From a virus, in IMG/VR virus record IMGVR_UViG_3300032282_004241, positions 1 to 51,194 of that record: a DNA stretch of 51,194 bases. One strand, 5' to 3'. Under the pieces are notes generated by a model. It was given only the letters and a program-made list of their open reading frames with translations. It did not search any database and had not been told where the DNA came from. Shown piece by piece: positions 1,411-46,248 of this stretch. Numbering within the stretch: position 1 is the first letter of the stretch; every line of letters begins with the position of its first letter. A program made the position numbers and the translations under genes.

Positions 1411-3126
1411 TTGAGTACGTCCATGCCCACAAATAAAAGTCTGCTTCGTCTAGCATCATCGATGCCGGTGGGTTCTGCGTCCCGTAAGGCCATCCTGCTC
1501 AATTTGAGGGCGGCATCGTCTGACTTCTTTGAGGGCCGCGTCCAGGTCGAAAATGAGAATGGTCGCTTGGTCTGGGTGCTGAAAGAGACGCTGAATGGCC
1601 CCGAGGGTAAGCGGTTCAAGCGTGTCAAAGACAAGGGCGACGACGCCGCCAAGGGCTCGAAGAAGAAATACACGCCGAAGCGCACGTATAAAGAGCACAG
1701 CGACGGGTCTTACACGGACGAAGACTATGGCGTTCGTATTGAGAAGGACATCCCCAAAGAGACATGGGAAGCCTTCTTGGACGACCCCGAGGGCAAAGAC
1801 CTCCTCGAAAACTTCAAGATCAACATCATCGCTGGTCGTGATGGGTTGCTCACGACGGAGCACTTGAAGAATGCCGTAGACCTTCGGCGTAAGCTCAATA
1901 AATATTCCGCAGAGTTGGACAAGAAGGAAAAGGCAAAGGAACGGGGCGAGAAGTACGACCCGAAGATTGACGATATCTGTGATACGGATGCTTTCCCGGC
2001 CAACGAGGGAAAGGGCGTATGCGCTGGAAATATGGGCATCACACGGGATTCGATGCCTCAGTTGGGGCAGCGACCCGTGAAAGACATGCTCAAAGCGGTG
2101 GACGACAAACGCTACGCCGAACTCAAGACGTTGATGAAAGAGAATCCTCGTGAGTTTGACAAACTTGACGGCCGTGACAAGGACGCCCTTTTTGACCGCA
2201 TGAATGCCGAAGCGGCGGTCAGGGCTGGAGCCGACCCCGAGAGTACGACATCGATCTTTGATGACTGGATCGAGCACCTGAAGAAAGACCGTGGTATCAC
2301 AATGACCGATTTGTCCAAGTTGAAGGACAAGGACGGTAAGCCGATGCCTGGAACAATGTCCGTTAAGGACTTGAAGGCCACGCAGTCTGAGATCAACGCG
2401 GAAACTGCGGTCAAGAACTCTGCGAAGTACCTGTCCGGCAAGATGGACTTGAACAACCCCAAGCCGAACGAGATCATCTATGTCTCTTCGGACGGGCACA
2501 TTTTGGACGGGCATCACCGCTGGTCGGGTTTGTTGCTGGCGGACCCGGACACGAAGATCCCGGTCATTCGGATCAACAAGCCGATGAAGGACATTTTGGA
2601 GGATGCCCTAAACTTCAAGGGTGTCTTCCGACAGGACATAAAGTCCCGTCCCATTGCCGACGATGCCCCGATCAACCTACGTCACAACCCGGGTTCTGTC
2701 TGGAAACAGCGTAACGGCAAGTTCTACGGGCAAAAGAGCAAGGATGAGGTTGGTGGGCCATACGACACCGAGGAAGCGGCGAAAGCCTATGCCACGGGTA
2801 AGAGCGAGAGTAAGAAAACCGCTCGCATGTTGACGGCCTCGGATAAGGTGGCGTTGCTTCGCATGGCCTCCCTAATGCCCAAGGGCTCAGATGAGCGAAG
2901 GGCGATTCTGGCGGGCCTTGCCAAGTCCGCTGATCAGTGGGTCAGCAAAGCGATCAAACACCCCGGTCGTTTGCATGAATACTTCGGCATCCCCAAGGGG
3001 GAGAACATCCCCGTGGCGAAGATCGACGCTGAGATCAAGAAGCTGGACAGCAAGAAAGACAAGACGGATGCCGACCTGTCGCTCTTGCGGGCCTTGAATC
3101 TTGCGAAGACGCTGAGAAAGTTTTGA
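1411..3126 (+). CDS. ParB-domain virion-type protein with two copies of a shared peptide motif
   Basis: The protein is 571 residues from TTG 1411; ATG 1423 is an alternative start. A ParB/sulfiredoxin-like core is visible around residues 355-385 (GHILDGHHRWSG), preceded by IIYVSSDG. In its family this motif binds or hydrolyses nucleotides. The peptide LLRLASSMPVGSASRKAIL sits near the N-terminus (residues 11-29), and a close relative, LLRMASLMPKGSDERRAIL, sits at about residues 482-500. The same motif recurs in the products at 3128 and 12878. The middle is lysine- and acid-rich. The gene is followed after 1 nt by the peptidase-like gene, so the two are probably co-translated. Function is unknown; a head-internal protein is likely from context. 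Confidence 0.6.
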   Translation: MSTSMPTNKSLLRLASSMPVGSASRKAILLNLRAASSDFFEGRVQVENENGRLVWVLKETLNGPEGKRFKRVKDKGDDAAKGSKKKYTPKRTYKEHSDGSYTDEDYGVRIEKDIPKETWEAFLDDPEGKDLLENFKINIIAGRDGLLTTEHLKNAVDLRRKLNKYSAELDKKEKAKERGEKYDPKIDDICDTDAFPANEGKGVCAGNMGITRDSMPQLGQRPVKDMLKAVDDKRYAELKTLMKENPREFDKLDGRDKDALFDRMNAEAAVRAGADPESTTSIFDDWIEHLKKDRGITMTDLSKLKDKDGKPMPGTMSVKDLKATQSEINAETAVKNSAKYLSGKMDLNNPKPNEIIYVSSDGHILDGHHRWSGLLLADPDTKIPVIRINKPMKDILEDALNFKGVFRQDIKSRPIADDAPINLRHNPGSVWKQRNGKFYGQKSKDEVGGPYDTEEAAKAYATGKSESKKTARMLTASDKVALLRMASLMPKGSDERRAILAGLAKSADQWVSKAIKHPGRLHEYFGIPKGENIPVAKIDAEIKKLDSKKDKTDADLSLLRALNLAKTLRKF

Positions 3127-3127
3127 C

Positions 3128-4075
3128 ATGAACCGTAAAGCCCGATCCGCTGTTCCTGGGTTGCGTCAGGAAACGCAGTTCACATGCTGCGCCACGTCGA
3201 TTGCCGCTTGCTTGCAGGCGCACGGCAAAAATCAGACCGAGGCCGATGTGAATATGGTCCTTGGAGCGTCCCCGATGGCGGGCGCCACCTGGGAGGCGGT
3301 TCTGGCGACGGTGCAGTATTTCGGGCTACGGGGAACGTTGGTCGTGCCTGCGACGGTTTCGATGCTGAAAGCCTGGACGGACGCGGGTACGCCCGTCATC
3401 ATCGCTTGGAACCCCGAGAATCGTCCGTGGTCACATGCGTCAGTCGTGGCTGACGTGACGGATGGGCCGGACGGGCGTTACGTTCATATCATGGACTCAA
3501 ACATCCCGAACCCGGACAAGACGTTCCGTGTATTACATGAGGACGATTTTTGTGCCAAATGGGGTGAGAAGGTCAATGACAGCCTGATTGTTCGCCGTCC
3601 GGCTTGTGCGGTCGAGCGTGAGATCACGGTGGAAGGTCGTCAAGTGCGTGCCTCGACCAGAGGCCGTAATGATCGTTCGGCTTTGATTCATCTTGCAGCG
3701 AAACTACCGCAGGGTGACAGCACTCGTCGTGCGATTGTTGCCGGATTGCTGAGTCGAGACAAGCAATTAGGGGTCCACCCTTTTAAGAAAGAGCTGGCTG
3801 ATATCGCATTTGTGGTCAAAAATCCGGGATCATTGATCTCACTGAATCCACTGTTCCCGGAGAAATCCGGGGACGTGGCGATGACGATTGCACAGCTAGA
3901 TCAAATATACGACAGGTTGAAAAACCTGGACGCATCCGGTGTGAAGGCAGCATTGCTTCGCACTCCGCGATCTATGTGGATGAACGTCCCTGCGAGCGTG
4001 TTCCGGTTTTCGGGTGTCAAGGCACGGCATTTGAACCTCGACATATCGGACCAGGAATTGCTGTCCTTCGCGTGA
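3128..4075 (+). CDS. C39-like cysteine peptidase domain protein
   Basis: The 315-residue product begins at ATG 3128, just after the previous stop. Residues 15-125 look like a C39-type papain-fold peptidase. Cys20/Cys21 lie in QETQFTCCATSIAACL, His103 in WSHASVVADV and Asp123 in HIMDSN, which gives the expected Cys-His-Asp order and spacing. C39 enzymes cleave leader peptides or amide bonds. The C-terminal half carries the shared motif ALIHLAAKLPQGDSTRRAIV (from residue 185), then a region ending in a helical tail. No signal peptide or membrane segment is seen. It may process virion proteins or act after injection; the substrate is not deducible. Confidence 0.6.
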   Translation: MNRKARSAVPGLRQETQFTCCATSIAACLQAHGKNQTEADVNMVLGASPMAGATWEAVLATVQYFGLRGTLVVPATVSMLKAWTDAGTPVIIAWNPENRPWSHASVVADVTDGPDGRYVHIMDSNIPNPDKTFRVLHEDDFCAKWGEKVNDSLIVRRPACAVEREITVEGRQVRASTRGRNDRSALIHLAAKLPQGDSTRRAIVAGLLSRDKQLGVHPFKKELADIAFVVKNPGSLISLNPLFPEKSGDVAMTIAQLDQIYDRLKNLDASGVKAALLRTPRSMWMNVPASVFRFSGVKARHLNLDISDQELLSFA

Positions 4076-5068: not shown

Positions 5069-5860
5069 ATGTCACTCGATGTAGATCAATTCGTTAAGTC
5101 TCTGCCTCCGGACACAACCCGTGTGCGGGTGATAACCGCTAACGGGTTGCTTTCGTACCGAAAGGTCGAAGAACTCCTGCCTACGGACGAACCCGTCATG
5201 GGGCCGACAGGATTTCCTGTCGTTATGAAGGGTCGCGTTGGGGCATTGCCAAAGTTTCTTCGCAATCAGCCTAGTCCAGTACCTATGGCACTGGCTGAGT
5301 TGACTTCCGTGGCAGTTGTCACACCCACGCCTATTCAATCGCTTGGCTCAGCAGCCATCTTGGATGAGCCGAATTCAATCATCCCAGAAGACCCCGAGGT
5401 GGAGAAGGTCGAGCAGGTTCGTCAGACTCGGCGAAAACGGCACGGCCGAAATGCTGTGCTGCGTGAGGTCAAGCGTAACCCCTCGGCAGACTCAGTTTTT
5501 GATGTGCTCATGCATAGCTTGGCTGAAGAAGCTGAGATGCTGGAGTTCGAGCGTGATAAGGTGCTGCAATTGGGGCAGCCCTCTGGACATCTGACAGAGC
5601 AGCGCCTCCGGGTTATGAAGATGATGACTGATGCGTGGCTCAAGCGACGCTCAAAGTCGAACGGTTCGGGTGTGGACTTGGACTCGCCCGCTTTTGCGGC
5701 AGTGTTTGCTTTTCTTCTGGAGACACTCCGGGCATCCATGGAAGATGCCGGAATGCGCCAGGAATTCATTGAGACGGTGTTCGCAAAAGTGTCCAAGCGA
5801 CTTAATGACGATTGGAAGAACGAGGCTATGATTCGCATTCGTGAGAAAGCGACCGCATGA
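5069..5860 (+). CDS. Hypothetical protein upstream of terminase; small-terminase candidate
   Basis: This is a 263-residue protein with an N-terminal beta-rich part (MSLDVDQFVKSLPP), a proline-rich linker, a basic patch (RQTRRKRHGRN) near residue 120 and a long helical C-terminal half. Its stop overlaps the terminase start (ATGA at 5857-5860), which implies translational coupling. Position, a basic segment and helical content suit a small terminase subunit, but I recognise no diagnostic motif. This is inference from context only. Confidence 0.4.
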   Translation: MSLDVDQFVKSLPPDTTRVRVITANGLLSYRKVEELLPTDEPVMGPTGFPVVMKGRVGALPKFLRNQPSPVPMALAELTSVAVVTPTPIQSLGSAAILDEPNSIIPEDPEVEKVEQVRQTRRKRHGRNAVLREVKRNPSADSVFDVLMHSLAEEAEMLEFERDKVLQLGQPSGHLTEQRLRVMKMMTDAWLKRRSKSNGSGVDLDSPAFAAVFAFLLETLRASMEDAGMRQEFIETVFAKVSKRLNDDWKNEAMIRIREKATA

Positions 5861-8637
5861 GTCTTGCTGAGATTGCGGCTTCTGCGGGTCGACGAAGTGC
5901 GGCTTCCGTATCGGTCGCAGTAGACATCATCTCTTTCATCGAGGCCCCTTGGGGCCTGAGCCTTCGGCTCTACCCCGTGCAGCGGGTACTTCTCAAAGCT
6001 CACTATGGCCTTGAGCTAGACGATAACCCGCATGGGTTCGACCTGCACAATCCAATTCCGACCGACCACCCAAACTATTCACCTGATCTGGTAGACGAAG
6101 AAGGATTCTACAAGTTCCGGGTGCCCGTTACGGATTGGCGTCGGCAAAATCCTCAGATGCTCACTGAGGCGGGGTACTTGCGGTACCTGTTTGATGATGG
6201 TCGATGCAATATCCGCGAGGTTATCCCCGGGCAAGAACGTCGAGAGATGATTCTGAGTGTCGGAAGACGCTCCGGGAAAACACTGCTCACCTCTTGCATC
6301 ATTGCGTATGAGACCTATCGGTTGCTGATCAAAGGCAACCCCCAGGCATACTATGGGTCGTCACAATCGAACGTGATCCAGTTGATCTCTGTCGCAACAG
6401 ACAAAGATCAGGCCGGACTGCTCTATCGTGAATCCTCTGGGCACTTCAACAAGTGCCTAGCAGCGGATACGTTGGTGGTGACCGACGAAGGCACAAAACC
6501 GATCCAATCGCTGGTGGGCACGGAACCTACTCTGCTCACGAGGGATGGTTCTTGGGTGAAGGCCCCTGTCCGATCTTTCGGGGCTCAGCAACTTTACGAG
6601 ATCGTGCTTTGCCGTCAGGGTGTTCGTAAGGTTATATTTGCTACGGCAGATCATCGCTGGTTTGCTCGTGATCGCCATAAATCCCATCGCGGTGGGTTCC
6701 GCGAATTCACTACGGTACAGCTAAGACCTGGTGCCCATCGGCTTCAAGCAGTTTTCGGTCAAAGCTACAAAAAAAGAGTCCACCCGGCACCTTTTGGAGT
6801 TGCCCACGGTTTCACCTTTGGGTACGGGCATCGTAGCGGGGATTGTATATTCGCGCACTGCCCTTTCTTTAAGGACCCCCCATCACCCAATCGAGAAGAT
6901 AAGTCCTATCTTCTCGGTTGGGTGATGGGTTACTTTGCCGCAGAGGGTTGCGTCTCTGGCGGCAGCATTAGCATTTCGAGTGCCGTTCGAGCTAACGTCG
7001 AGTTTTTCCGTGACGCCTGCATACTCTTGGGTATTGGGGCATACGATATCAGGTCTGAGACTACGGTTTCGGACATCACGGGCAGGGATCACACACTCTA
7101 TCGAATGGCGCTGGTGCGCCAGACGCTAGACGAATCCTTCTTCTTGACCAGTTCCCATAGACAATCCTTCCAGCGTTCCAGAAACGGGGTTGCAAGACGT
7201 GACGACACCCATTGGGTAGTAGAGTCGGTACAACCCACAGACCGTGTCGAAGAGGTCTATTGTGCCACGGTAGGGGGGCACCGCGATTTTGTTCTTGATG
7301 GGAACATTGCGACGGGTAATTGCGACTTCTTCAAGCCGTATTCCGCAAACGCTACGCAGTCATTCGCCACATTTCAGACGCCTTTCGACATTGAACGCTA
7401 TGGCTCGTACCACGACAACCAGAAGGCGCGATATTCGATCAACGTGACCTTCCGGTCATGTGTGGCCAAGGGTTTGCGCGGTGGTGCAAACATCTTGGTT
7501 GCTTTGGACGAGGTTGCCCACTTCACCGATGAGGGGCAGTCGTCCGCTGATGATGTGTATCAAGCCGTTGAACCGTCGACCCGAACATTCTCGCCCAAAG
7601 ATCCAAAAAATCCTAGCCGCCCCATTGGTGAGAACGAGGGCCGAATCATTTTGATCTCCAGCCCGCTCGGTAAGCAGGGCTTGTTCTATAAGCAGTTCAC
7701 GTTGGGCTTCACGTCCGGCGAGGCCGCAAAGAACATGCTCTGCGTACAGGCACCTACATGGGAGGTCAACCCCACGGTGCCTGCTGGAACATTCGAGGGA
7801 TCTTACCTGAAAGATCCTCGTGTGTTCTATACTGAGTTCGGTGCGGTATTTACTGACCGAACCCGTGGTTGGATTGAAGATGAATCCGACTTGATGGCTT
7901 GTGTCGATCCAAAGCTGACTCCGAAGTCAGCCGCACCGAGTCGGATGCCACATTTCATGGGTGTTGACATCGCTCTGGTAGGCGACTATACGGCAGTCGC
8001 CGTTGGGCATTTCGACCCGCAGGGTCGTGTGGTACTGGACTATATTGATCGTATTCGAGCCGGTGAGGGTAAATATACGGCGTTGGACCGTTTGGATTTC
8101 GATAACGTAGCTGACTGGATTGCAGACATTGCACGCCGCTTTTTCATCACAGAGGGCATCTTCGACCAATGGTCCGGTATCCCGATGGAACAGGCGCTCG
8201 CAAAGCGAGGTTTGGGCCAATTGAAATCCCTGCACCACACAAAACCATTGGTGTCTCAGATGTGGCAGAACTTCAAGAACTTGTTGCTCGACCGAAAGAT
8301 CGGGCTCTATAACGATGTCAAGGATGGTCGCGCAGCCTACTTGACTGAAATCTTGGAGCTTCAGGCGGACTACGAATCCAAGTATATTGTTACTGTAGAG
8401 GCCCCCAAGGTTGATGGGAAGCATGACGACTATTCGGACGCCCTCTGCCGAATGCTATGGGTCGCGTCTCAAAGGATGGCGAACAAGGCAGTCGTATTTG
8501 GTAACAGAACGGGTGAGAACATGCAGTCGTCCCGACTGCCCACAGGCAATCTGACGGCTTTGCGACGGGCTAAACAGTCGGGATCGCATGAGTCTAGGAT
8601 GATACCTCGTCTATCTAACCGTCCGCGTTGGAGGTGA
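5857..8637 (+). CDS. terL: Terminase large subunit, interrupted by an intein
   Basis: The precursor is 926 residues; without the intein (C200-N488) the mature protein is about 637. The ATPase has Walker A in SVGRRSGKTLLTS (~residues 130-142), Walker B in ILVALDEVAHF and a coupling motif in IILISSPLGKQG. The nuclease domain shows its acidic residues in HFMGVDIALVGDYTAV, EGIFDQWSG and KHDDYSDAL. Terminase pumps DNA into the prohead through the portal and cuts concatemers. The intein sits just after the Walker A region, and splicing is needed for activity. Start ATG 5857 overlaps the upstream stop. The product is followed by a decoration-type gene and then the portal. Confidence 0.93.
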   Translation: MSLAEIAASAGRRSAASVSVAVDIISFIEAPWGLSLRLYPVQRVLLKAHYGLELDDNPHGFDLHNPIPTDHPNYSPDLVDEEGFYKFRVPVTDWRRQNPQMLTEAGYLRYLFDDGRCNIREVIPGQERREMILSVGRRSGKTLLTSCIIAYETYRLLIKGNPQAYYGSSQSNVIQLISVATDKDQAGLLYRESSGHFNKCLAADTLVVTDEGTKPIQSLVGTEPTLLTRDGSWVKAPVRSFGAQQLYEIVLCRQGVRKVIFATADHRWFARDRHKSHRGGFREFTTVQLRPGAHRLQAVFGQSYKKRVHPAPFGVAHGFTFGYGHRSGDCIFAHCPFFKDPPSPNREDKSYLLGWVMGYFAAEGCVSGGSISISSAVRANVEFFRDACILLGIGAYDIRSETTVSDITGRDHTLYRMALVRQTLDESFFLTSSHRQSFQRSRNGVARRDDTHWVVESVQPTDRVEEVYCATVGGHRDFVLDGNIATGNCDFFKPYSANATQSFATFQTPFDIERYGSYHDNQKARYSINVTFRSCVAKGLRGGANILVALDEVAHFTDEGQSSADDVYQAVEPSTRTFSPKDPKNPSRPIGENEGRIILISSPLGKQGLFYKQFTLGFTSGEAAKNMLCVQAPTWEVNPTVPAGTFEGSYLKDPRVFYTEFGAVFTDRTRGWIEDESDLMACVDPKLTPKSAAPSRMPHFMGVDIALVGDYTAVAVGHFDPQGRVVLDYIDRIRAGEGKYTALDRLDFDNVADWIADIARRFFITEGIFDQWSGIPMEQALAKRGLGQLKSLHHTKPLVSQMWQNFKNLLLDRKIGLYNDVKDGRAAYLTEILELQADYESKYIVTVEAPKVDGKHDDYSDALCRMLWVASQRMANKAVVFGNRTGENMQSSRLPTGNLTALRRAKQSGSHESRMIPRLSNRPRWR
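6454..7320 (+). mobile_element. Intein in the terminase large subunit (289 aa)
   Basis: The intein starts at Cys200 (CLAADTLVVTDEG, block A) and ends at Asn488 before Cys489 (block F VEEVYCATVGGHRDFVLDG, end IATGN/C). ATADHRWFA fits the block B TxxH motif. One LAGLIDADG-type motif is visible (YLLGWVMGYFAAEG, ~351-364) and I cannot find a second, so the endonuclease is probably degenerate. The residue before the terminal Asn is Gly rather than the usual His. At 289 aa it lies between mini-inteins and full inteins. Confidence 0.88.
6879..6929. repeat. 23-bp near-perfect inverted repeat inside the intein
   Basis: The arm at 6879-6901 is the reverse complement of 6907-6929 except for one position, which would be G-U in RNA. 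The spacer is 5 nt (AGTCC). It lies in coding sequence exactly where the LAGLIDADG motif of the intein begins. It would form a very stable hairpin in mRNA and a possible cruciform in DNA. There is no T-tract, so it does not look like a terminator. Confidence 0.9.
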
Positions 8638-9510: not shown

Positions 9511-12500
9511 ATGGCCGAGGATGAAAAAGGCAAAGTCGTTAAGCCAGTGTCAAATGGTGACGGCAAAGCCAAGGCCCGTTCAGGCAAGCCCCGCAAAATC
9601 CCTAAAGTGGCCATGATCTCCCGTACTGCAAGCATGGGCGGTATGGGCATGGGTAACGCCGGAAGTGTTCAAGGCTCGGGCGGCAATTTCTATTCGCCAG
9701 AGCTTTCCACGGACTTCTTGGAGTTGCCGCAGAGCCTCCATGAACAGTGGAACTACTATCGCTTCTTCTATCGTTCCGAAGCCTTTGTGGGTCAAGCGAT
9801 TGATCTACACACAGAACTTCCGCTCAGTAAAATCCGCATCGGTGTGCCTAAGTGCAAGAATCGTGAAGTGGCTCTTGCGGCATATCGCTTTTGTGAGAAG
9901 TGGGCCAAAAGCATCAACCTCATGGATCGGTTGCAGGTGATCGTCCATGAACGGAATCTGCTGGGTGAAGTGTTCATCTGGTTTGAGGACGCGACGCCCG
10001 AGATGCCCCCTGACGTTCGGGGTCGCCCTTCCCGTATCTTGGACGAGGAAGGCAATCCGGTTGAGCACTGGATCGAATATGATGATGCCGATGAACGTGC
10101 GTTCAAGTGGCTCAAAAAGAACTACAAAGGCTGGACGTCCATTCGGGTACTGCCGCCAGAGCAAGTCCGTATGGAGTCCTTCAACTTCACGAGTGAGCGG
10201 ATCATCGAACTGATCCCGGACTCCAAGACGAAGGACATCATTGAGCGTGCAAAGGCAGGCGACATAAACGCACAGCGCGTCGTGCTCTCCATGCCCGCCG
10301 AGGTTGTCAAGGCCGTTACCGAGGGGAGCTATATCCCCCTTAATACGGACCCTGATGCGGGATCGTTCGTCTACTATCTGGCGAACCGCAAGTCTGACTA
10401 TGAGCCCCGTGGTCGTTCTTTGCTAGAGCGTTGCTTCCTTCCAGGAACGCCGATCTGGGTGAAGCGGGACGGGATCATTCAGCAAGTCCCTGTTGAAGAT
10501 GCGGACCCCAGCACGGATGAGGCCCTTACCCATAAGGGCCGGTTCAAGTCATTTGCAACGGGATTCCGCCCCGTTGCAGAAGAAGTCTGCGTCGTTTCTG
10601 TTGAAGGGATTGAACACACCATTGGTGTGACTTGTGAGCATCGATTCCTTGTCATTGATGATGATGGTTCAGAGCGGTGGGTCGAGGCAAAAGACCTTCG
10701 TGTGGGGGATAGCCTCTGTGAAGGGGCTGTGCTATCAACGGCTGAATCTCCCGAACGAATCGATCTCGTAGACTGGTGGACGGGTAGAACTCTTGAGGGT
10801 GGTCGACGGAATCGACCCAATCAGGCGGGTTCTGACATCGGGTCAAGGTTTTTGACTGCTGTTGAAACCGATGGGTCAGATGATGGCCTCACAGTTACGT
10901 TCGAGCATCGGCAGGATGATGCCAATCGAGTTGAAGGCGTTGCCAAGGTAGGCCGTCTTGTTCATTGGTTGGAATCGTTGACAGAGCCTACCGAAGCGTC
11001 CTATGAGGCCGTTGCTGCTGTTACCAGCCAGACCGAATCCGATGTACGAAACAATGCCCATCGCCTTCGTAAGGTGTCTGGGCTGATTACTGAACGGAAG
11101 TACAAGAAGGGCCTCGCTAGGGGTAGGGGGGCGGTTACCTTATGGCACCCTCTCCCAAAGGGCACCATCGTTCATGGTGAATTCTCGCATTTCACCGTTT
11201 CGTCTCCAGTCCGGTATATCGACCTGACTCCAGACTTCTGCTGGCTTTTGGGCACCTGGATTGGCGATGGGTGCCTGTGGACGTCGAAAGATGCCCCTCT
11301 AGTTGCGTGTCAGCTAGGTTGGACGTTTGGCCGACACAGTGAAGTGGCCAAGGCCGTTCGAGAGCGGGTTATCGAGATTGCGACTTCAGCCTTCGGGGCT
11401 GAAAATCTGACTACAAACGCATCGCCCTTCCACAAAGAGGACGACCCTGACCGAACTACGGAAGGGGTCGGAATCATCGATCCTCTTTTGAGTCGATGGT
11501 TCATGGGCGAATTCGGACACAAGGCTCAGGGGAAGCACCTTCCTGCGTGGTTCTTTGACCTACCCGATACACACCTTCTGTCGTTCCTTCAGGGTGTTCT
11601 GGACACCGATGGGTGTCTGATTATGGGTCGGTCTTCAATCGAGTTGACGCTTGATAACAAGCGGTTGATTGACCAGATCCACCTGATTTGCAATCGACTC
11701 GGGTTCAACACCTATGTCAAGTGGTCTCATAAGCCTGCCCGGACATGGATGCGTAAGTGGAAAACCAAGGATGGGTTCAACGAAAAGACCTACAGTTACG
11801 AGCCAAAATCTTTCCCGCTCCTGAGCGCAAACTGCCATGATGATGTCATGCGCTGGGCCGATGGTTCCGTGAAGGGTCGATTTGTTGACCTGACGACCGT
11901 GAAAGCCGCGAAGAAAAGCCGGTTCGTTGGTGGGCGTTTGACCCGTCGAGTATTGGGGGTCGAGCACCTTCCTTATGAAGGTCCCGTCTATTCGTTCGGC
12001 GTTACGAACGACGAGTCTCATGTGACGGGCGGTGTGGTCACGCACAATTGTATTCGCGCCCTCGTGTATCGAGATAAGCTGCGTCAGGCGCAGACAAGCA
12101 TTGCGTCACGCCACATGACACCGATTCGGGTCGTCTACGGTGAGAACATGGATGCTGCGGATGTGGAGGCACTTCGCGAACAAGTTGATATGTCGCTGCA
12201 AGACCCAGATTATTCGATCATCGCGAACTTCCAAATTAATTGGGAAGAGATGGGTGCAGATCAGCGGTTGCTCGATCTGAACACCGAGTATGACCTGACT
12301 GACCGACAGCTTTACGCCGGTATGGGCGTGACCGAAGGTCTGTTGTCGGGCGAAAGCGCCTACTCGGGGGATAAAATCAACATCGAGGTCATCAACACCC
12401 GCTACATGCTGTTGCGGGAACAGATCCAGTCTCTTGTTGAGAGCTACTTTTTCAAGCCCATGTGTGCCCGCATGGGCTTTGTCGATACCGACGAGGACGG

Positions 12501-12840
12501 TGACGAATACGTCGTCGTGCCGACCCTGTCGTTCACTCGCTTGGCGCTCCGTGACAATCGCGATACGTTCGATGCCCTGTATAACCTATATCAGAAGGGC
12601 AGTTTGGATGTGGAGACGATCTTGGAGTTGCTGAATTTAGACCCTGTGACTGTCCGCGAGAAACTTGAGAAAGACCTGTTCACGGTGAATGATCCGACGT
12701 TCAACGAGGTCTTGCGTGGAATCTATGGGGATGTTGGTCGGGCTCTTGCTGAGAAGTCTAACGCCATGGAGAAGATTGCCGAGAACTTGGGGCTCAAATA
12801 TACGCCCCCCAAGGAAGAGGGTGACGGTCGGTTCGGATGA
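9511..12840 (+). CDS. Portal protein, interrupted by an intein
   Basis: The precursor is 1109 residues; removing the intein (C308-N846) leaves about 570, a typical large-phage portal size. Portal-like features include the N-terminal YYRFFYRSEAFVGQAIDLHTEL helix region and VIVHERNLLGEVFIWFED. The post-intein helical segment includes YDLTDRQLYAGMGVTEGLLSGESAYSG, and the C-terminal helices resemble the crown/stem. Portals form the dodecameric channel at one capsid vertex through which terminase pumps DNA. The gene order terL, decoration, small ORF, portal supports this. Start ATG 9511 follows AAAGGGA. Confidence 0.85.
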   Translation: MAEDEKGKVVKPVSNGDGKAKARSGKPRKIPKVAMISRTASMGGMGMGNAGSVQGSGGNFYSPELSTDFLELPQSLHEQWNYYRFFYRSEAFVGQAIDLHTELPLSKIRIGVPKCKNREVALAAYRFCEKWAKSINLMDRLQVIVHERNLLGEVFIWFEDATPEMPPDVRGRPSRILDEEGNPVEHWIEYDDADERAFKWLKKNYKGWTSIRVLPPEQVRMESFNFTSERIIELIPDSKTKDIIERAKAGDINAQRVVLSMPAEVVKAVTEGSYIPLNTDPDAGSFVYYLANRKSDYEPRGRSLLERCFLPGTPIWVKRDGIIQQVPVEDADPSTDEALTHKGRFKSFATGFRPVAEEVCVVSVEGIEHTIGVTCEHRFLVIDDDGSERWVEAKDLRVGDSLCEGAVLSTAESPERIDLVDWWTGRTLEGGRRNRPNQAGSDIGSRFLTAVETDGSDDGLTVTFEHRQDDANRVEGVAKVGRLVHWLESLTEPTEASYEAVAAVTSQTESDVRNNAHRLRKVSGLITERKYKKGLARGRGAVTLWHPLPKGTIVHGEFSHFTVSSPVRYIDLTPDFCWLLGTWIGDGCLWTSKDAPLVACQLGWTFGRHSEVAKAVRERVIEIATSAFGAENLTTNASPFHKEDDPDRTTEGVGIIDPLLSRWFMGEFGHKAQGKHLPAWFFDLPDTHLLSFLQGVLDTDGCLIMGRSSIELTLDNKRLIDQIHLICNRLGFNTYVKWSHKPARTWMRKWKTKDGFNEKTYSYEPKSFPLLSANCHDDVMRWADGSVKGRFVDLTTVKAAKKSRFVGGRLTRRVLGVEHLPYEGPVYSFGVTNDESHVTGGVVTHNCIRALVYRDKLRQAQTSIASRHMTPIRVVYGENMDAADVEALREQVDMSLQDPDYSIIANFQINWEEMGADQRLLDLNTEYDLTDRQLYAGMGVTEGLLSGESAYSGDKINIEVINTRYMLLREQIQSLVESYFFKPMCARMGFVDTDEDGDEYVVVPTLSFTRLALRDNRDTFDALYNLYQKGSLDVETILELLNLDPVTVREKLEKDLFTVNDPTFNEVLRGIYGDVGRALAEKSNAMEKIAENLGLKYTPPKEEGDGRFG
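10432..12048 (+). mobile_element. Full-length LAGLIDADG intein in the portal (539 aa)
   Basis: The intein begins at Cys308 (CFLPGTPIWVKRDG) and ends at the canonical VVTHN/C junction (Asn846/Cys847). TCEHRFLV is the block B His motif, and YEGPVYSFGVTNDESHV forms block F. The endonuclease has two LAGLIDADG motifs, WLLGTWIGDGCLW (~577-589) and LLSFLQGVLDTDG (~689-701), so it may still be active. A basic segment with NAHRLRKVSG between blocks B and the endonuclease may bind DNA. Confidence 0.93.
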
Positions 12841-32019: not shown

Positions 32020-33939
32020 ATGCCAGTGCCGTCATTTGAAAACTTGCGGTGTCTGTATGAGGATGCTGGCTTGTCGGACGCAGAGATTGGTGACCGTTTC
32101 GGTGTGACGGGGATGACGGTTTGCCGATGGCGGAAGTTGGCCGGCATCGTAACGATGCCGGATATGGATCGTCGTCGAATTCGTGGCGGGCACCGTTACC
32201 TTGACCTTGACGAGCCGACTTTGAGGCGGCTCTATGTGGTCGATGGTCTTGGGATGGACGAGATTGGTCGCCGTTACGGTTGTTCAAAGATCCCGATTCG
32301 CGAGTTGATCCACAAATTCGGGATTCCTGTAACAGCAAAACGGTGGGAGAAGAAGGGCCTGCCGGACGAAATTCCCGCAGATATGATGCCTGTCGTGATT
32401 GGGACACTTCTAGGTGATGCCTGCATCGCTTATGACAACGGCGGTGATACCGCAAGGTATAAGGTGTCTCACGGTTACTCCCAATTTTCGTACATCTCTG
32501 CAATCCATCGCAGGTTTGGGTCTTGGGCGAAGAGGCTGCTTGGCTCTGATACTGTGGACCTATTTGGCCGGCGCAGGATAGGTCATAGCTTTTACTCAGT
32601 CGCCCATCCTGCTTTTCGGCAGCTTCGTCAGTCGTGGTATCGGGATGACCTTCGTGGGGAGTTCCCGGTTTCCTGGTTGAAGTGCCCACCTAGATCCGTG
32701 TTGGAGTCATTGTCAGACGAGGCTTTGGCCTACTGGTATTTCGATGACGGGACACATGGGTTTTCGATTGCGACATTCTTCCCGCTAATCCCGCCAGAAG
32801 AAATTGCGCATCTCGTATCTGTTGGGACGGGTTTGCGGTGGTATCCCAAAGGCGCCAAGGATGGGGAGATGTTCAACCTGTCTCTTCGTGCGGCAGATCA
32901 CGACGAGTTTCAGGCGCGGATTCTCCCGTGGGCAACGCCTGACATGGCGCATAAATTCGACCGTTCGTTCTGGCCATTGGTTCCGGGGATTCCTGAGACA
33001 CCGCCTGAAATCGACTCCCGGGATGTGGAGCGTTTGGCGTTTTACACGATTCCGTCGTGGCAAAATCTGGACCTCGGTGCGAAAGCCCAGTGGGTTCGTG
33101 AGGTTTTTGAGATCCATCGTCGTCATGGTTTCCCATATCCACGCGAAACCCCACCGAATGAGGCCCACAAGATTTTCGCAAACTTGAAGTCTCACTCCGA
33201 ATCATTGACAGACGGGCATGTGTTCAGTCGGTCGAAGGTTGGTCTTTCGATGTGCGACGGTTATGCCCCGCAGCGGTATGCCCGCGCCCGTTTGACGTTC
33301 GATGATGATGCGTCCTTTATCCGTCTGATTGAGGCGCAGTTCCAATCTCCAGCGATTACTCATGTCACACGAACAGCAATGCGGGTGGCTTTGGGGGGCG
33401 CGATCCCGATCTTCCGTCCATCCACCGCAAAGGCTTTGGTTGACACGTTATGCCCAGTAAACGGGGACGTTTGGATTCCGGTGGCGGGATTTGGAGGGGC
33501 TTTGTTGGGGGCGGCTGCGTCAGATCGGGTTGGGCGCATTGTTTGCCATGAAACCACAGACGTTCAACGGATGTGGTCCTCGATAGGGTGCGGTTCATCG
33601 CGGGTCGAATTCACACTTTTTGATGGGCCTGTCGATCTGATTCTGGCAGCCCCTATTGAGTCCGACTTTGGTTCCTTGTGGTCGGCGCTCCGTATTGGCG
33701 GGCATATTGTATTTCACCTTGATGTAGCAGAGGCTTTGGCTTTGGACCGCTTGGCTGTTGCGGCGGGGTTTCGGCGAGTTTTTCGGTTATGGTATCCCGT
33801 TGACGGCCAGCGGGAGGACGAGATCATCTTGGTTTATGTGAAAGGTGGCCTTGGCGTGGAGCCCGATTGGGATCTTACGGGGAGACGTGTGACAGGTTCA
33901 CGGCATCATCGGCGAGGCACGGTAGACGGGCAGAACTAA
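32020..33939 (+). CDS. LAGLIDADG endonuclease fused to a methylase-like domain
   Basis: 639 residues. Two helix-turn-helix units lie at the N-terminus (LSDAEIGDRFGVTGMTVCRW and GMDEIGRRYGCSKIPIREL). Two LAGLIDADG motifs follow, VVIGTLLGDACI (~125-136) and ALAYWYFDDGTH (~236-247), as in intron-type homing endonucleases. The C-terminal ~200 residues resemble phage DNA methylases: FRPSTAKALVD, then a degenerate SAM motif IPVAGFGGALLGAA, then VDLILAAPIESDF where DPPY/SPP would be. Both methylase motifs lack usual key residues, so activity is doubtful. It stands alone after the capsid terminator, directly before the split zinc-ribbon gene. Confidence 0.7.
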   Translation: MPVPSFENLRCLYEDAGLSDAEIGDRFGVTGMTVCRWRKLAGIVTMPDMDRRRIRGGHRYLDLDEPTLRRLYVVDGLGMDEIGRRYGCSKIPIRELIHKFGIPVTAKRWEKKGLPDEIPADMMPVVIGTLLGDACIAYDNGGDTARYKVSHGYSQFSYISAIHRRFGSWAKRLLGSDTVDLFGRRRIGHSFYSVAHPAFRQLRQSWYRDDLRGEFPVSWLKCPPRSVLESLSDEALAYWYFDDGTHGFSIATFFPLIPPEEIAHLVSVGTGLRWYPKGAKDGEMFNLSLRAADHDEFQARILPWATPDMAHKFDRSFWPLVPGIPETPPEIDSRDVERLAFYTIPSWQNLDLGAKAQWVREVFEIHRRHGFPYPRETPPNEAHKIFANLKSHSESLTDGHVFSRSKVGLSMCDGYAPQRYARARLTFDDDASFIRLIEAQFQSPAITHVTRTAMRVALGGAIPIFRPSTAKALVDTLCPVNGDVWIPVAGFGGALLGAAASDRVGRIVCHETTDVQRMWSSIGCGSSRVEFTLFDGPVDLILAAPIESDFGSLWSALRIGGHIVFHLDVAEALALDRLAVAAGFRRVFRLWYPVDGQREDEIILVYVKGGLGVEPDWDLTGRRVTGSRHHRRGTVDGQN

Positions 33940-34148: not shown

Positions 34149-35570
34149 ATGAAAGCAATCATCACCCACGCTCACGAGGCAACCAATCCAGGCAAACTCG
34201 CCCTACTCGACGCCCTCAGCGTCGAGTACCGCGCCTATGTTCGGAAATGCCTTCAAAAGATGATTGATGATCGAATCACCCACGTTCAACTCCCTGACCG
34301 TCGAACCTACTTCCCAACTGCTCAAAACCTCTCGTCCCAAATCGTCAAAAACGCCCAGGCTCACGCCATCTTCATCATGGACTCCTGGATCCGATCCCTC
34401 TACGCCCGCAAGCTCAGGAACAAGATCGCCCGAACCGAAGGTCTAACCGATCAGCAACGAATCGAACTTCGGTGCTGCGGCAAACGGGTTCTTCTGAAGC
34501 CAGGTGTCCAAGGTCGGATGATCCTGACCCCCGAGATGTTCGACCTCTACTGGTCTTGGGTTTGGGACCCTTTGGTTTCAGGTTCACCCCCGGAGGTTAG
34601 AAAAGACCTCCCGATGTGGATGACTGAAATGACGTGCGAGGTCCAAGAGGCAGATCATGCTGGCCTATCGGGTTGGTGGTTCAAGTTCTCCAGCCTCCTG
34701 AAAGGTCATCGGGTTTGGATCCCTCTTGCTTTCAACCCGAAGATGAAGTCGGAGAACGTTGCGAAGACGGTTCTCGTCAAGAAACGTAAAGGTCGTTGGA
34801 CGTTTCAGTTCACCGATAAGACCCCCGATGAAATCTTCGACGGGACCCAAGGGAAGATCGGGTTGGATGTTGGTTTGAACGTATTGGCAGCCACTTCAGA
34901 TGGTCGCCTCTACGGGCAACACGTCAAGCCCAAGTTCGATGCCCTCTATGAACGAGTCCGGGATCTCAGGTCAAATCGCCAACGTCAGGGATTCAAAGAG
35001 AATTCCCCTCGATTGGATCGTCTTGAGGAACGCCTCACGGGCTTGGTCAAGACGGCAGTTGGAACCGTCTCAAATCAACTGATCAAAGATTACCCTGGGT
35101 TCACGTTTGTCATTGAAGACCTGGATCTTCGAGGGACACTGGGGCAGAAGCGGTTCGCTTATCGAGCCCTTCATCATTCACTTGGAACCAAAGCAGTCGT
35201 TGAGGTAGTGAACCCGGCATACAGTTCTCAGATGTGCCCGAGTTGCGGGTATGTGAGTAGAAAGAATCGCCACGGGACGGACTTCAAATGTCAGTCCTGT
35301 GGTCGTAAGAGTCATGCTGATGTGGTGGGAGCAAAGAATCTTCTCGGACGTTCCGAGGACAAAGGGATTCGGAGCTTTGATCATCCGTCAGTTGTGAGGG
35401 CGTTGTTGAGAAAGCGATTCCTCGTAAAGAGGACCAGTTTCTCGACACGCAACTCCCTGGTGGCCCCATTGCCCCGAAGGGGGAGGGGGAGGCCGAGGAA
35501 ATGCGCTCGAACCGTCGAGCCAGAGGCTTACTGTGGAGAAACGCCGCATAGCCTCAAAGACGATACCTAA
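34149..35570 (+). CDS. tnpB: TnpB RNA-guided nuclease
   Basis: 473 residues. The RuvC-like triad is intact: Asp240 (GLDVGLNVLAATSDG), Glu323 (FVIEDLDLRG) and Asp391 (HADVVGAKNLLGR). A zinc finger CPSCGY...CQSCGRK lies between the last two. TnpB cuts DNA next to a short motif using an omega RNA made from the element's 3' end, and helps keep the element by cutting empty sites. The flank read as guide here would begin CACAAGTGTGACG, the 3' half of the split gene. The C-terminus is basic (RRGRGRPRKCA). An internally deleted copy lies at 44067-44387. Confidence 0.92.
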   Translation: MKAIITHAHEATNPGKLALLDALSVEYRAYVRKCLQKMIDDRITHVQLPDRRTYFPTAQNLSSQIVKNAQAHAIFIMDSWIRSLYARKLRNKIARTEGLTDQQRIELRCCGKRVLLKPGVQGRMILTPEMFDLYWSWVWDPLVSGSPPEVRKDLPMWMTEMTCEVQEADHAGLSGWWFKFSSLLKGHRVWIPLAFNPKMKSENVAKTVLVKKRKGRWTFQFTDKTPDEIFDGTQGKIGLDVGLNVLAATSDGRLYGQHVKPKFDALYERVRDLRSNRQRQGFKENSPRLDRLEERLTGLVKTAVGTVSNQLIKDYPGFTFVIEDLDLRGTLGQKRFAYRALHHSLGTKAVVEVVNPAYSSQMCPSCGYVSRKNRHGTDFKCQSCGRKSHADVVGAKNLLGRSEDKGIRSFDHPSVVRALLRKRFLVKRTSFSTRNSLVAPLPRRGRGRPRKCARTVEPEAYCGETPHSLKDDT

Positions 35571-40589: not shown

Positions 40590-41108
40590 TCAGCCGAGAT
40601 AGTCCCGCCACAGTTCGGGTACATTTTGATCCAAGGACGGATCATTCGACTCGTTCAAAACAGGCAGCACCTTCGGCGCCACAGGCGATGACCGAAGGTG
40701 CATATTCGCTTCCTGCGGCGTCCGTGCTTCTTTCTTTTGATTGCACGGATTACAGGCGACTACAATGTTCCCCCACTCCGTCCTACCTCCGCGTGATCGC
40801 GGAAAGACGTGATCCAGGGTGAACCGATGTAGTACAACGGCGCTGCCACAGTATTGGCATTGGCCTTTGTCACGAATCCAAATATTTTTGCGGGTGAACC
40901 TGGGTTCGCATTTGAACCACCGTGATGGGTTCTTGCGCAGGAACCTCACGACGCAGGGCATCACCCATTCTTGGGCGGCCGACCTGATGGTCTTATCGGG
41001 ATACGCCTCGACAAGCTCGGCGCGACCTGAATAGATCATCGTAATGGCGTCCTGCCACGTCGTTACGGCTACTGGCCGATAGCTGTTGTTCAGGACGAGA
41101 ACATCCAT
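40590..41108 (-). CDS. HNH endonuclease
   Basis: 172 residues on the minus strand, tail-to-tail with the previous gene with no gap. It starts MDVLVLNNSYRPVAVTTWQD, typical of standalone phage and bacterial HNH proteins. The nuclease core is CQYCG...LHRFTLDHVFPRSRGG then NIVVACNPCNQKK, giving the H-N-H residues and two CxxC zinc pairs. It cuts or nicks DNA. It is the first reverse gene and lies at the end of the RNA-gene region. Confidence 0.9.
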   Translation of the reverse strand: MDVLVLNNSYRPVAVTTWQDAITMIYSGRAELVEAYPDKTIRSAAQEWVMPCVVRFLRKNPSRWFKCEPRFTRKNIWIRDKGQCQYCGSAVVLHRFTLDHVFPRSRGGRTEWGNIVVACNPCNQKKEARTPQEANMHLRSSPVAPKVLPVLNESNDPSLDQNVPELWRDYLG

Positions 41109-41491: not shown

Positions 41492-41580
41492 GTTGAAGAA
41501 TACCGTCAGAGCGCGGATTTGAGAAGCTCTGTCAGAACACCCAAAGGGTTCGAACTCGGCGCCCCGATGTCGATGCGAAG

Positions 41581-41654
41581 TGAACCCGGGAGGATTTGAA
41601 CCTCCGACTTCTCCGGTAGGATCGGAGCACTCTGTCCAGTTGAGTTACGGGTCC
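41581..41654 (-). tRNA. tRNA-Arg(CCT)
   Basis: Acceptor GGACCCG pairs with CGGGTTC. The anticodon arm CTCCG-ATCCTAC-CGGAG gives CCT (codon AGG). The T-arm is CGGAG-TTCAAATC-type. No CCA is encoded. Confidence 0.88.
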
Positions 41655-41728
41655 GCACAGCTACAACGTAGCTGAAGCAACTTTAGGACGCAATTGATTT
41701 AAGCTCTATCCACCTGAGCTACGGGAGC
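41655..41728 (-). pseudogene. Decayed tRNA (5' half) with a hairpin in place of the T-arm
   Basis: The minus strand starts GCTCCCGTAGCTCAGGTGG, a normal tRNA acceptor and D-arm. The anticodon loop is 9 nt (GCGTCCTAA), and no CGGGAGC follows to close the acceptor. Instead a perfect hairpin CAGCTAC-GTT-GTAGCTG lies before the next tRNA. It may be an old Arg tRNA. Confidence 0.6.
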
Positions 41729-41806
41729 TTGGATTTGCCCGTCTCTCCGGGCTTGTCACGCCAAGGTAAGCAGCGGCGTTCCCTGGACGCCCAATCAAGG
41801 GCGATG

Positions 41807-41892
41807 AGGAAGGGGTGGGATTCGAACCCACGGCGGATTTTGTCCGCGACGGTTTTCAAGACCGTTGTTTTAAGCCGCTCAACCACCCTTCC
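41807..41892 (-). tRNA. tRNA-Ser(TGA)
   Basis: Acceptor GGAAGGG/CCCTTCC; anticodon arm ACGGT-CTTGAAA-ACCGT gives TGA. A long variable arm (CGCGGACAAAATCCGC) identifies a class II tRNA. The T-arm is GTGGG-TTCGAAT-CCCAC. The discriminator is T, unusual for Ser. Confidence 0.9.
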
Positions 41893-41899
41893 TTCGGAT

Positions 41900-42109
41900 T
41901 CAGGTTCCGTGAATGGAACTTTGCAATACGGCAAGCCCGTATGAAGTAACTTGGAAAGTTTCTGCGATCTTCACGACCAAACCCTTGTGCTTGAGGCTTG
42001 AAAGGATCTTCCGCGTGTGCCCCTCATTCCGGTCAATCAGGCTGGAAAGCTCTTTCGTGGGCAAGGTCGAACCAGACAGGTAGAACAGAGCCTCAATTTC
42101 CTTTGTCAC
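41900..42109 (-). CDS. Small winged-helix protein (paralogue A)
   Basis: 69 residues from GTG 42109 with AAAGGAT upstream; the frame is open further upstream but overlaps tilS. The sequence IEALFYLSGSTLPTKELSSL then NEGHTRKILSSLKHKGLVV is a winged helix-turn-helix. A paralogue at 45660-45887 shares FYLSG, the K-x-L-x-x-LI core and GHxRxxLS. It overlaps the 3' end of tilS by 17 nt and lies just before tRNA-Ser in the transcript. It may regulate the tRNA region. Confidence 0.6.
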   Translation of the reverse strand: MTKEIEALFYLSGSTLPTKELSSLIDRNEGHTRKILSSLKHKGLVVKIAETFQVTSYGLAVLQSSIHGT

Positions 42110-42713
42110 AGGTGCATCCTTTCGTTGGAGTGCCGTCGTACAGGGACTTACGCAGAACCGCAATCATCGCAGGCACCGCCGCTTCTAGCGCGGGCAGGCA
42201 CGTCCGTAATCTTGCTCGCATATTACCGTCCCCCACGTTGGTCGGATCTACTATGTAGGGAATAGTGTGGTCTTCACACCATTGTACCGTTTGCGCTTTT
42301 CGGGCATAGAGGAAAGGGCGGAAAACGTTCCCGTTTACGGGAGACATCGGTTTCGGATTCCCGCGTAGGCTTGTGTAGATCCACCACTCCAATGCATCGT
42401 CAAATGTGTGGCCTACAGCTACGGGTAGCTCATTGGCCGCGTATGTCGCACGCCTCGCCTTTGACCAGGATAGTTCCGTGGCCGGTATGTCATGTGGCAA
42501 CGTCACGACATGAACGGGGATGCCTAGCGCACTGCCATGTTTGAGGACCAGGGCTTCGAATGTAGGCGACATTGCAGTGCCGTGATTGACATGGATGATG
42601 CGACGGACTCGACGAGTCCGATTCAGAAAATCAAGTAACGCCATGGAGTCCGGCCCGCCAGATACGGCGACATCGCACAGGCTTGGCAAGGGACAGGCTA
42701 ATTTGATTTGCAT
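42093..42713 (-). CDS. tilS: TilS-like tRNA(Ile)-lysidine synthase
   Basis: 206 residues, about the length of the TilS catalytic core without the C-terminal domains. The PP-loop is VSGGPDSMALLDFL (~17-30), followed by HVNHG, GHTFDDALEWWIYTSLRG (the HxxDDxxET-like motif with changes) and RPFLYARKAQTVQWCEDH then YIVDPTN. TilS joins lysine to C34 of tRNA-Ile2(CAU) using ATP, so it reads AUA instead of AUG. The likely substrate tRNA lies 17 nt upstream on the same strand. Start ATG 42713. Confidence 0.85.
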   Translation of the reverse strand: MQIKLACPLPSLCDVAVSGGPDSMALLDFLNRTRRVRRIIHVNHGTAMSPTFEALVLKHGSALGIPVHVVTLPHDIPATELSWSKARRATYAANELPVAVGHTFDDALEWWIYTSLRGNPKPMSPVNGNVFRPFLYARKAQTVQWCEDHTIPYIVDPTNVGDGNMRARLRTCLPALEAAVPAMIAVLRKSLYDGTPTKGCTCDKGN

Positions 42714-42730: not shown

Positions 42731-42807
42731 TGGTAGGCCCCCTCGGGTTTGAACCGAGAACCTAGCGATTATGAGTCGCTTGCTCTTACCGATTGAGCTA
42801 GAGGCCC
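42731..42807 (-). tRNA. tRNA-Ile2(CAT), TilS substrate
   Basis: Acceptor GGGCCTC/GGGGCCT with encoded CCA. The anticodon arm GCGACTCATAATCGC is identical, as I recall it, to that of E. coli tRNA-Ile2 and unlike that of elongator Met. It lies directly before a tilS-like gene. The T-arm is CTCGG-TTCAAAC-CCGAG. Confidence 0.85.
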
Positions 42808-42859
42808 ATGTGCCTAGAGCGGGACTCGAACCCGCACGCCCTTTCGAGCGGAGGATTTT

Positions 42860-43501
42860 CTTACCACACGCACTTTCATGCGCCCTCTCGGTTGTGGTCT
42901 GGACTATATCATCTCCCACAGCCTTACCTGTTTCGGGAGCGCCGTGCATAGTCTCTGAACCTTCCCCATAGTGCTACCTTTAGGGGCTCGGCTGCTGATT
43001 ACCCAATTTCCGCTATTCTTATAACATTCGCGCTCGTCGTTTCCAACCACGCTGTAGTTAACGGAACTATCAGGGCTTTCCAGCAATTCTCGACGTTCTC
43101 ATTCCCAGATTTCTCTAGGATGACTCTCTGTAGGTCCAGGTATTGATGAAGACGTCCATGTTCCGATTCTCTTCAGCGATATCTCGGTGCTGCGTGTGCT
43201 CCGGAACGTTTGTCATTAGGTACTTATTTGTGTTTTTTGTTCGCGAAGCTAGCTCGACCTGCAAAGCGTAGCAACTTGAGCAAAGTTGCTGTTCTTTTCG
43301 CCAAGCCTCGTATGCATCGTGACAAGCCACACATATAAGACTAAACGTGTATCTGGGCTTCTGTCTGGCAAGGGCGCGTAACCGCTCCCTGTTGCACTCC
43401 GCACAAATACGGCGTCCGATCTCTCTACCCGCTCCACAGTTCTTGCAGATTAGTTCTTTCATGCCCACAGGACACCCTGTGTCTAACCAACATGCAAGGT
43501 G
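42860..43501 (-). ncRNA. Group I intron in tRNA-Leu(UAA)
   Basis: The intron is 642 nt and ends in G (42860), with U before its 5' end. Conserved core elements are present: P/Q region AATTGGGTAATCAGCAGCC (about 43009-42983), R GGTTCAGAGACTA (42961-42949) and S GATGATATAGTCC (42913-42901). R and S pair through GACTA/TAGTC (P7). ACCACA...TGTGGT forms P9 near the 3' end. It should self-splice. A protein gene is inserted in its 5' half (43115-43462). Confidence 0.9.
43115..43462 (-). CDS. Intron-encoded zinc-finger protein, possible degenerate homing endonuclease
   Basis: 115 residues from ATG 43462, wholly inside the group I intron. It has ICKNCG, ICAECN, ICVACHDAYEAW and CSSCYALQ: four Cys pairs, probably two zinc sites. 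The tail has TNVPEHTQHRDIAEENRN, which recalls the EHRxIAEE start of an HNH core, but the rest of that core is missing. It may be a truncated HNH homing enzyme or a DNA-binding remnant. The position strongly suggests an origin in intron mobility. Confidence 0.55.
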   Translation of the reverse strand: MKELICKNCGAGREIGRRICAECNRERLRALARQKPRYTFSLICVACHDAYEAWRKEQQLCSSCYALQVELASRTKNTNKYLMTNVPEHTQHRDIAEENRNMDVFINTWTYRESS

Positions 43502-43538
43502 AAGTCCTCTGTGTCTACCGTTCCACCATCTAGGCAAA

Positions 43539-46177: not shown

Positions 46178-46248
46178 TTAGAAGCCGGGCTTGAACTCGC
46201 AACCTCCCGCTTGAAAGGCGGACGATCTAACCATTGATCTACTGCGCC
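46178..46248 (-). tRNA. Degenerate tRNA-Glu(TTC)
   Basis: The D-arm GATC-AATGGTTA-GATC and anticodon arm TCCGC-CTTTCAA-GCGGG (TTC) are good. The T-stem GCGAG/CCGGC has two mismatches, and the acceptor (GGCGCAG against TTCTAAT) does not pair. It is probably a pseudogene, unless repaired or unusual. Confidence 0.5.

Follow-up and report, generated by a model that had tools for sequence, protein, structure and literature searches.

An apparently mosaic group I intron with a broken HNH endonuclease gene in a phage tRNA-Leu(UAA)

We report a 642-nt group I intron that interrupts the tRNA-Leu(UAA) gene of a phage and looks, from sequence comparison, like a mosaic: a catalytic core of the type found in introns of phage protein genes, joined to the 3′ module of shorter trnL introns. 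We consider it very likely that this is a self-splicing intron that arrived by homing, has since lost its endonuclease but kept its ribozyme, and is of mosaic make-up. The trnL(UAA) intron is the textbook case of an ancient, vertically inherited intron.

Results

An Intron Splits the tRNA-Leu(UAA) Gene of a Probable Large Phage

The stretch of DNA that was analysed, hereafter the window, is an IMG/VR record of 51,194 bases without end repeats. The terminase that it encodes shares 56% identity with the one of the 485-kb metagenomic phage LR745208 and 28% with the one of the 308-kb Tunturiibacter phage Tunturi_5, so the record is probably a fragment of a large phage. A tRNA array occupies the minus strand from 46329 down to 41580 (ARAGORN). 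ARAGORN calls tRNA-Leu(taa) at c[42810,43535] only when introns are allowed; the call agrees within one base with the interval of the original prediction (42811-43535), and its 642-nt intron follows anticodon position 34. Only 2 nt separate it from tRNA-Val on one side and from tRNA-Met on the other.

The joined exons form, as had been proposed, a full cloverleaf (ARAGORN score 118.75), and a covariance search finds RF00028 at 43161..42879 on the minus strand with 63.5 bits (gathering score 50, E=7.1e-14). The insertion point, between U34 and A35, is that of the cyanobacterial and plastid trnL intron, also as claimed. The last base of the 5′ exon is a U, the last base of the intron is a G (omega-G) followed by AAAAUC, and the R and S elements lie where they had been placed (Table 1). 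No second, intact Leu(UAA) gene occurs within the 51-kb window, where the remaining Leu tRNAs are UAG and CAA (ARAGORN).

Table 1. Features of the split tRNA-Leu(UAA) gene, in window coordinates
Feature	Position	Strand	Evidence or remark
tRNA-Leu(UAA) 5′ exon, ends ..GGACUU (U34)	43502..43535	-	ARAGORN, cloverleaf
tRNA-Leu(UAA) 3′ exon, begins AAAAUC (A35)	42810..42859	-	ARAGORN, cloverleaf
Group I intron, 642 nt, omega-G last base at 42860	42860..43501	-	Rfam, ARAGORN
Predicted spliced tRNA junction, ..GGACUUAAAAUCC..	43502/43501 + 42860/42859	-	
Remnant HNH homing-endonuclease ORF in P1 loop, 115 aa	43115..43462	-	Alignment with six intact relatives
Deletion scar	43164..43168	-	Downstream, endonuclease C terminus EHGRLHQYLDLQRVI.. 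resumes in another frame
Internal guide sequence GAGUC	43122..43126	-	Pairs with exon GACUU 43506..43502, U.G at splice site
P2 hairpin, GAAA loop	43103..43120	-	7/7 pairs with double changes
P3 5′ strand, partner 42944..42940	43091..43095	-	100% paired, double changes in 4/5 pairs
P4-P5 domain, long P5 extension capped by GAAA loop	42992..43086	-	Helices 4-9; 83 nt between P4 strands
R element / P7 5′ strand, GTTCAGAGACTA	42949..42960	-	Rfam match, covariation alignment
P8, 42939..42935 with 42917..42913	42913..42939	-	Helix 13
S element / P7 3′ strand, GATATAGTCC	42901..42910	-	Rfam match, covariation alignment
P9 + P9.1 module, ..GACCACAAC..GUGUGGUAAG	42863..42898	-	Part common to other trnL introns

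The array holds several other features. A tRNA-Gln with a 444-nt intron, called by ARAGORN at 41580-42115, is spurious, since a true tRNA-Arg occupies 41580-41654. At 46182-46243 (minus strand), between tRNA-Thr and tRNA-Asn, Rfam matches its tRNA model weakly over positions 6-65 (33.7 bits); ARAGORN makes no call there, and the match is perhaps a decayed tRNA. A gene for a TilS-like lysidine synthetase (42093-42713, minus strand; PF01171 E=7e-21; TIGR02432 E=3e-21, under its cut-off) lies directly downstream of an anticodon-CAU tRNA (42731-42807, minus strand), which, given this neighbor, may be tRNA-Ile(CAU) instead of Met.

As for mobile elements, a LAGLIDADG_2 protein (32020-33939, plus strand), a TnpB-like protein (Cas12f1-like TNB and OrfB_IS605; 34149-35570, plus strand) and a free-standing HNH protein (40590-41108, minus strand) are encoded near the array, and the fragment is therefore rich in such elements. 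The terminase (5857-8637, plus strand; 926 aa) matches LAGLIDADG_3, and its alignment to LR745208 falls into two pieces with 66% covered; the portal (9511-12840, plus strand; 1109 aa) matches Intein_splicing and LAGLIDADG_3. Judging by sequence, both proteins look intein-bearing.

Covariation Supports a Complete Group I Ribozyme

The helices P1 to P9 are all present, together with the splice-site U.G and omega-G, and the intron belongs to the group I catalytic introns (RF00028), with self-splicing predicted from its structure. We drew this structure by hand and assessed it on an alignment of 12 window-type trnL introns (the window intron and 11 viral loci, endonuclease part omitted), in which 97.8% of base-pair cells pair, versus 31-40% when the partners are slid. 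Changes on both sides are found in 38 of 67 pairs, and none of 500 shuffles gave covariation as high. The covariance E-value and the covariation in 12 relatives thus exclude chance. RNAalifold alone recovers most of the helices drawn, with the exception of P7 and P1, because a pseudoknot-free structure cannot combine these two with the others.

P1 is short (5 bp), its guide lying 375 nt away from the splice site; 91.7% of its cells are paired, and the splice-site U.G is found in all 12 aligned introns. P7 is invariant and paired in every one of them, while P8 displays double changes in 4/5 pairs. No clear P10 was seen in the window intron. Between the P7 5′ strand and the P3 3′ strand, which begins 4 nt after P7, P7.1/P7.2 are absent, which rules out a canonical group IA intron (IA1/IA2). 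On this structure, guanosine would first attack behind U34, at the U.G pair of P1; the released 5′ exon would in turn attack after omega-G, yielding a normal, joined tRNA-Leu(UAA).

The Endonuclease Gene in the P1 Loop Is Broken

The original prediction, right about the intron, had overlooked a broken HNH gene in the P1 loop. The ORF starts with an ATG at 43462 and is located between the 5′ splice site and the guide. Pfam assigns its intact relatives, which lie in other trnL introns, to the HNH_3 endonucleases; they have a zinc-ribbon-like N-terminal region. The window ORF retains the zinc-ribbon N terminus, up to HRDIAEE, but some 33 residues are gone, the HH..N active site among them; the net loss relative to the locus L025 is 94 nt. 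By this alignment the endonuclease is inactivated, its HNH segment deleted and its frame shifted, and the ORF lacks the intact HNH active site of an active homing intron. The guide GAGUC falls within codons that read ..QRV.. in what used to be the endonuclease frame, so that splice-site recognition and the protein frame use the same bases.

Full-length relatives of this endonuclease are located in tRNA-Leu(UAA) introns in 10 of 10 cases, two of the ten being near-identical contigs. Three (L355, L359 and L360) sit in genes that ARAGORN labels Phe or SeC, wrongly, because it sets the junction one to two bases off. The endonuclease was not found among 50,697 phage records. In four introns (L004, L012, L020 and L025), the endonuclease ORF is open in frame across nearly the entire ribozyme core and ends within about 4-26 nt of the 3′ splice site. 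Another window-type trnL intron, L341 (2112-2675, minus strand; 480 nt), has an independent, larger endonuclease deletion and an exon junction, GACT|..AAG|TAAAATC, one base from the usual site.

The intron would thus have arrived as a homing element carrying an HNH endonuclease in its P1 loop, which presumably cut intronless tRNA-Leu(UAA) copies in co-infecting phages. Two related phages, LR745208 and Tunturi_5, have an intronless tRNA-Leu(UAA) and provide examples of the empty site. In the window phage a deletion later inactivated the endonuclease, whereas the ribozyme would have been retained because the tRNA depends on it. It might be argued instead that the whole insertion is degenerate and no longer splices, leaving a dead tRNA gene whose role is filled by another Leu(UAA) copy beyond the fragment; the endonuclease is indeed broken, and only 51 kb of the genome are in view. 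We regard this as extremely unlikely, since every core helix pairs in the window copy, the catalytic residues are present, the exons give a full cloverleaf, and decay is limited to the endonuclease.

At Least Two Intron Architectures Occupy the Same Site

A search with the pattern R..S..G|AAAATC returned 37 viral stretches (117 with looser letters) and, in genomes, at least 119. ARAGORN finds a tRNA-Leu(UAA) split after CTT at 68 viral loci and at least 53 genome loci, the latter including Cyanobacteria, Clostridia and Bacteroidales. This rules out a one-off oddity, and the introns at this spot on 68 viral contigs had escaped the original prediction. At least two intron architectures occupy the trnL U34/A35 site in phages, the window type and a shorter type, so that the same site does not mean the same element. 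A short-type trnL intron has a 3′ half matched (72%, E=4e-5) by 190288-190396 (minus strand) of LR756501.1, a 735-kb metagenomic phage. The viral contig L180, which also has a short-type trnL intron, encodes a ROOL RNA (2879-3444, minus strand; 283 bits) adjoining tRNAs.

The Core Resembles Introns of Phage Protein Genes

The P4 strands are 82-86 nt apart in window-type trnL introns and in their protein-gene relatives, versus mostly 15-35 nt in cyanobacterial and short-type trnL introns, as measured by an automatic anchor finder after omission of low-scoring HEG-bearing short-type rows in which P4 was misplaced. Outside tRNA genes, the long spacing occurs in the tail hydrolase of Staphylococcus phage DW2, in the lysin of Streptococcus phage Javan129, beside capsid genes in Vibrio phage 1.232.O and bajarodcaudo virus 2, and in many IMG/VR contigs, most of which are classed as non-tRNA because ARAGORN finds no tRNA around the intron.

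Since MAFFT misaligned the P5 extension when given all introns, we relied on HMM comparison and the 12-member alignment. Against an HMM of the window-type core, four introns of named phages score 78-91 bits; these introns, found by BLAST and outside the training set, are located in or next to genes for lysin, capsid and tail hydrolase. With the same HMM, cyanobacterial trnL introns score 15-32 bits and short-type ones no more than 31 bits. In a core tree that rests on 137 columns only, 11 trnL introns including the window's form one supported clade (100/98); with five long rows left out, the window intron is in no starred set. A single clade for all 13 trnL introns is not rejected (p-AU 0.32; 0.51 without L013).

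These scores bear on the kinship with the cyanobacterial and plastid intron that the identical gene and position had suggested, and which found no support. Descent from that IC3 intron, carried into the phage with its tRNA gene, would explain why host gene and site are identical and why a GAG guide and a GAAA-capped P2 are common to the two introns; an HMM of the P1-P2 head also reaches 14.9 bits, with 9 of the 24 cyanobacterial introns above 10 bits. We nevertheless find such descent highly improbable. Besides the low core scores, the P5 region is 83 nt versus 31-35 nt in nearly all cyanobacterial trnL introns, P7 is GACUA/UAGUC instead of GACUC/GAGUC, and the P9 module finds nothing in the cyanobacterial introns (0/24). 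On the core and tail HMM scores we reject a phage copy of the cyanobacterial intron.

The 3′ Module Matches That of Shorter trnL Introns

An HMM of the 3′ module, a comparison over about 50 nt, scores above 10 bits with 47/56 viral and with 32/49 bacterial short-type trnL introns; no cyanobacterial (0/24) or non-tRNA (0/113) intron passes that value. Conversely, the cyanobacterial P9, ..GUCCAAUUC.., is found in 24/24 cyanobacterial introns and 0/9 window-type introns. Because the affinities of core and 3′ module are split, we read the window intron as a mosaic, in which a P3-P8 core of the phage protein-gene type would have been fused to the P9 module of shorter trnL introns; the direction of exchange and the order of events given here are inferred. 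Two trnL members, L353 and L357, have a P9 of another kind. The mosaic boundary is therefore not shared by all, and the 3′ module was either swapped more than once or gained within the group.

Alternatively, a single, non-mosaic lineage from the protein-gene family could have moved into trnL, its P9 converging on that of other trnL introns; P9 has to place the 3′ splice site beside the same exon, so that the introns have some constraint in common. This seems unlikely to us: the likeness extends to the junction bases AGACYACAAC..GURGUAAG, which lie within the intron; short-type introns reach 40-42 bits at best, near the training members themselves (38-47.5); and those of cyanobacteria, which adjoin the identical exon, score 0.

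We somewhat favor a scenario in which an intron lineage of phage protein genes took over the trnL anticodon site through recombination with a trnL intron already present there. It would have gained the 3′ module of that intron and would also have acquired an HNH endonuclease specific for this tRNA. The classic site would then have been colonised twice, independently, and the second colonisation, as yet undescribed, would be spreading among large phages.

Discussion

Dozens of phage contigs have an intron at exactly this base, and at least two architectures are represented among them; a shared site is therefore by itself no proof of common ancestry. These introns point to phages as a reservoir, and a possible vehicle, for tRNA introns, and the mosaic architecture with its decayed endonuclease offers concrete material on how group I introns switch targets. 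We found no report of phage trnL introns in the literature searched, which covered few subscription papers or preprints. A 2014 review of bacterial group I introns stated that all phage introns then seen were in protein-coding genes, despite the many tRNA genes of phages (PMC3984707), a restriction that the window intron contradicts. According to a 2025 survey of Bastillevirinae, phage introns go beyond the accepted subgroups and nuclease type is uncoupled from intron type (PMC11878797).

Among known systems, the cyanobacterial and plastid trnL(UAA) group IC3 intron shares with the window intron its gene, its U34/A35 site, the group I fold, the GAG guide, the GAAA-capped P2, and omega-G followed by AAAAUC. 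The window intron differs from it in core lineage, in its 83-nt P5 region, in P7 and P9, and in the remnant HNH gene of its P1 loop. The group I intron in tRNA-fMet of cyanobacteria has an endonuclease, reportedly the subject of work by Bonocora and Shub in 2001 (cited in PMC3984707), that is by description alike in belonging to a group I intron and in being aimed at the anticodon region of a tRNA, but that tRNA is another one and the system is bacterial.

The phage protein-gene introns of DW2, Javan129 and 1.232.O agree with the window intron in their P4-P5-P6-P7 core, including its 82-86-nt P5 extension, at 70-75% DNA identity over about 140 nt. In contrast to them, the window intron has a tRNA as its host gene and a different P9 module, and it has none of the P7.1-like hairpin seen in the DW2 and Vibrio relatives. 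The shorter trnL(UAA) introns, of about 193-260 nt plus an optional HNH gene, are found in other viral contigs and in Clostridia and Bacteroidales genomes; they share the gene, the site and, in most cases, the P9/3′ module, but have a short P5, another core sequence, and HNH genes of different subfamilies inserted in L1 or L6.
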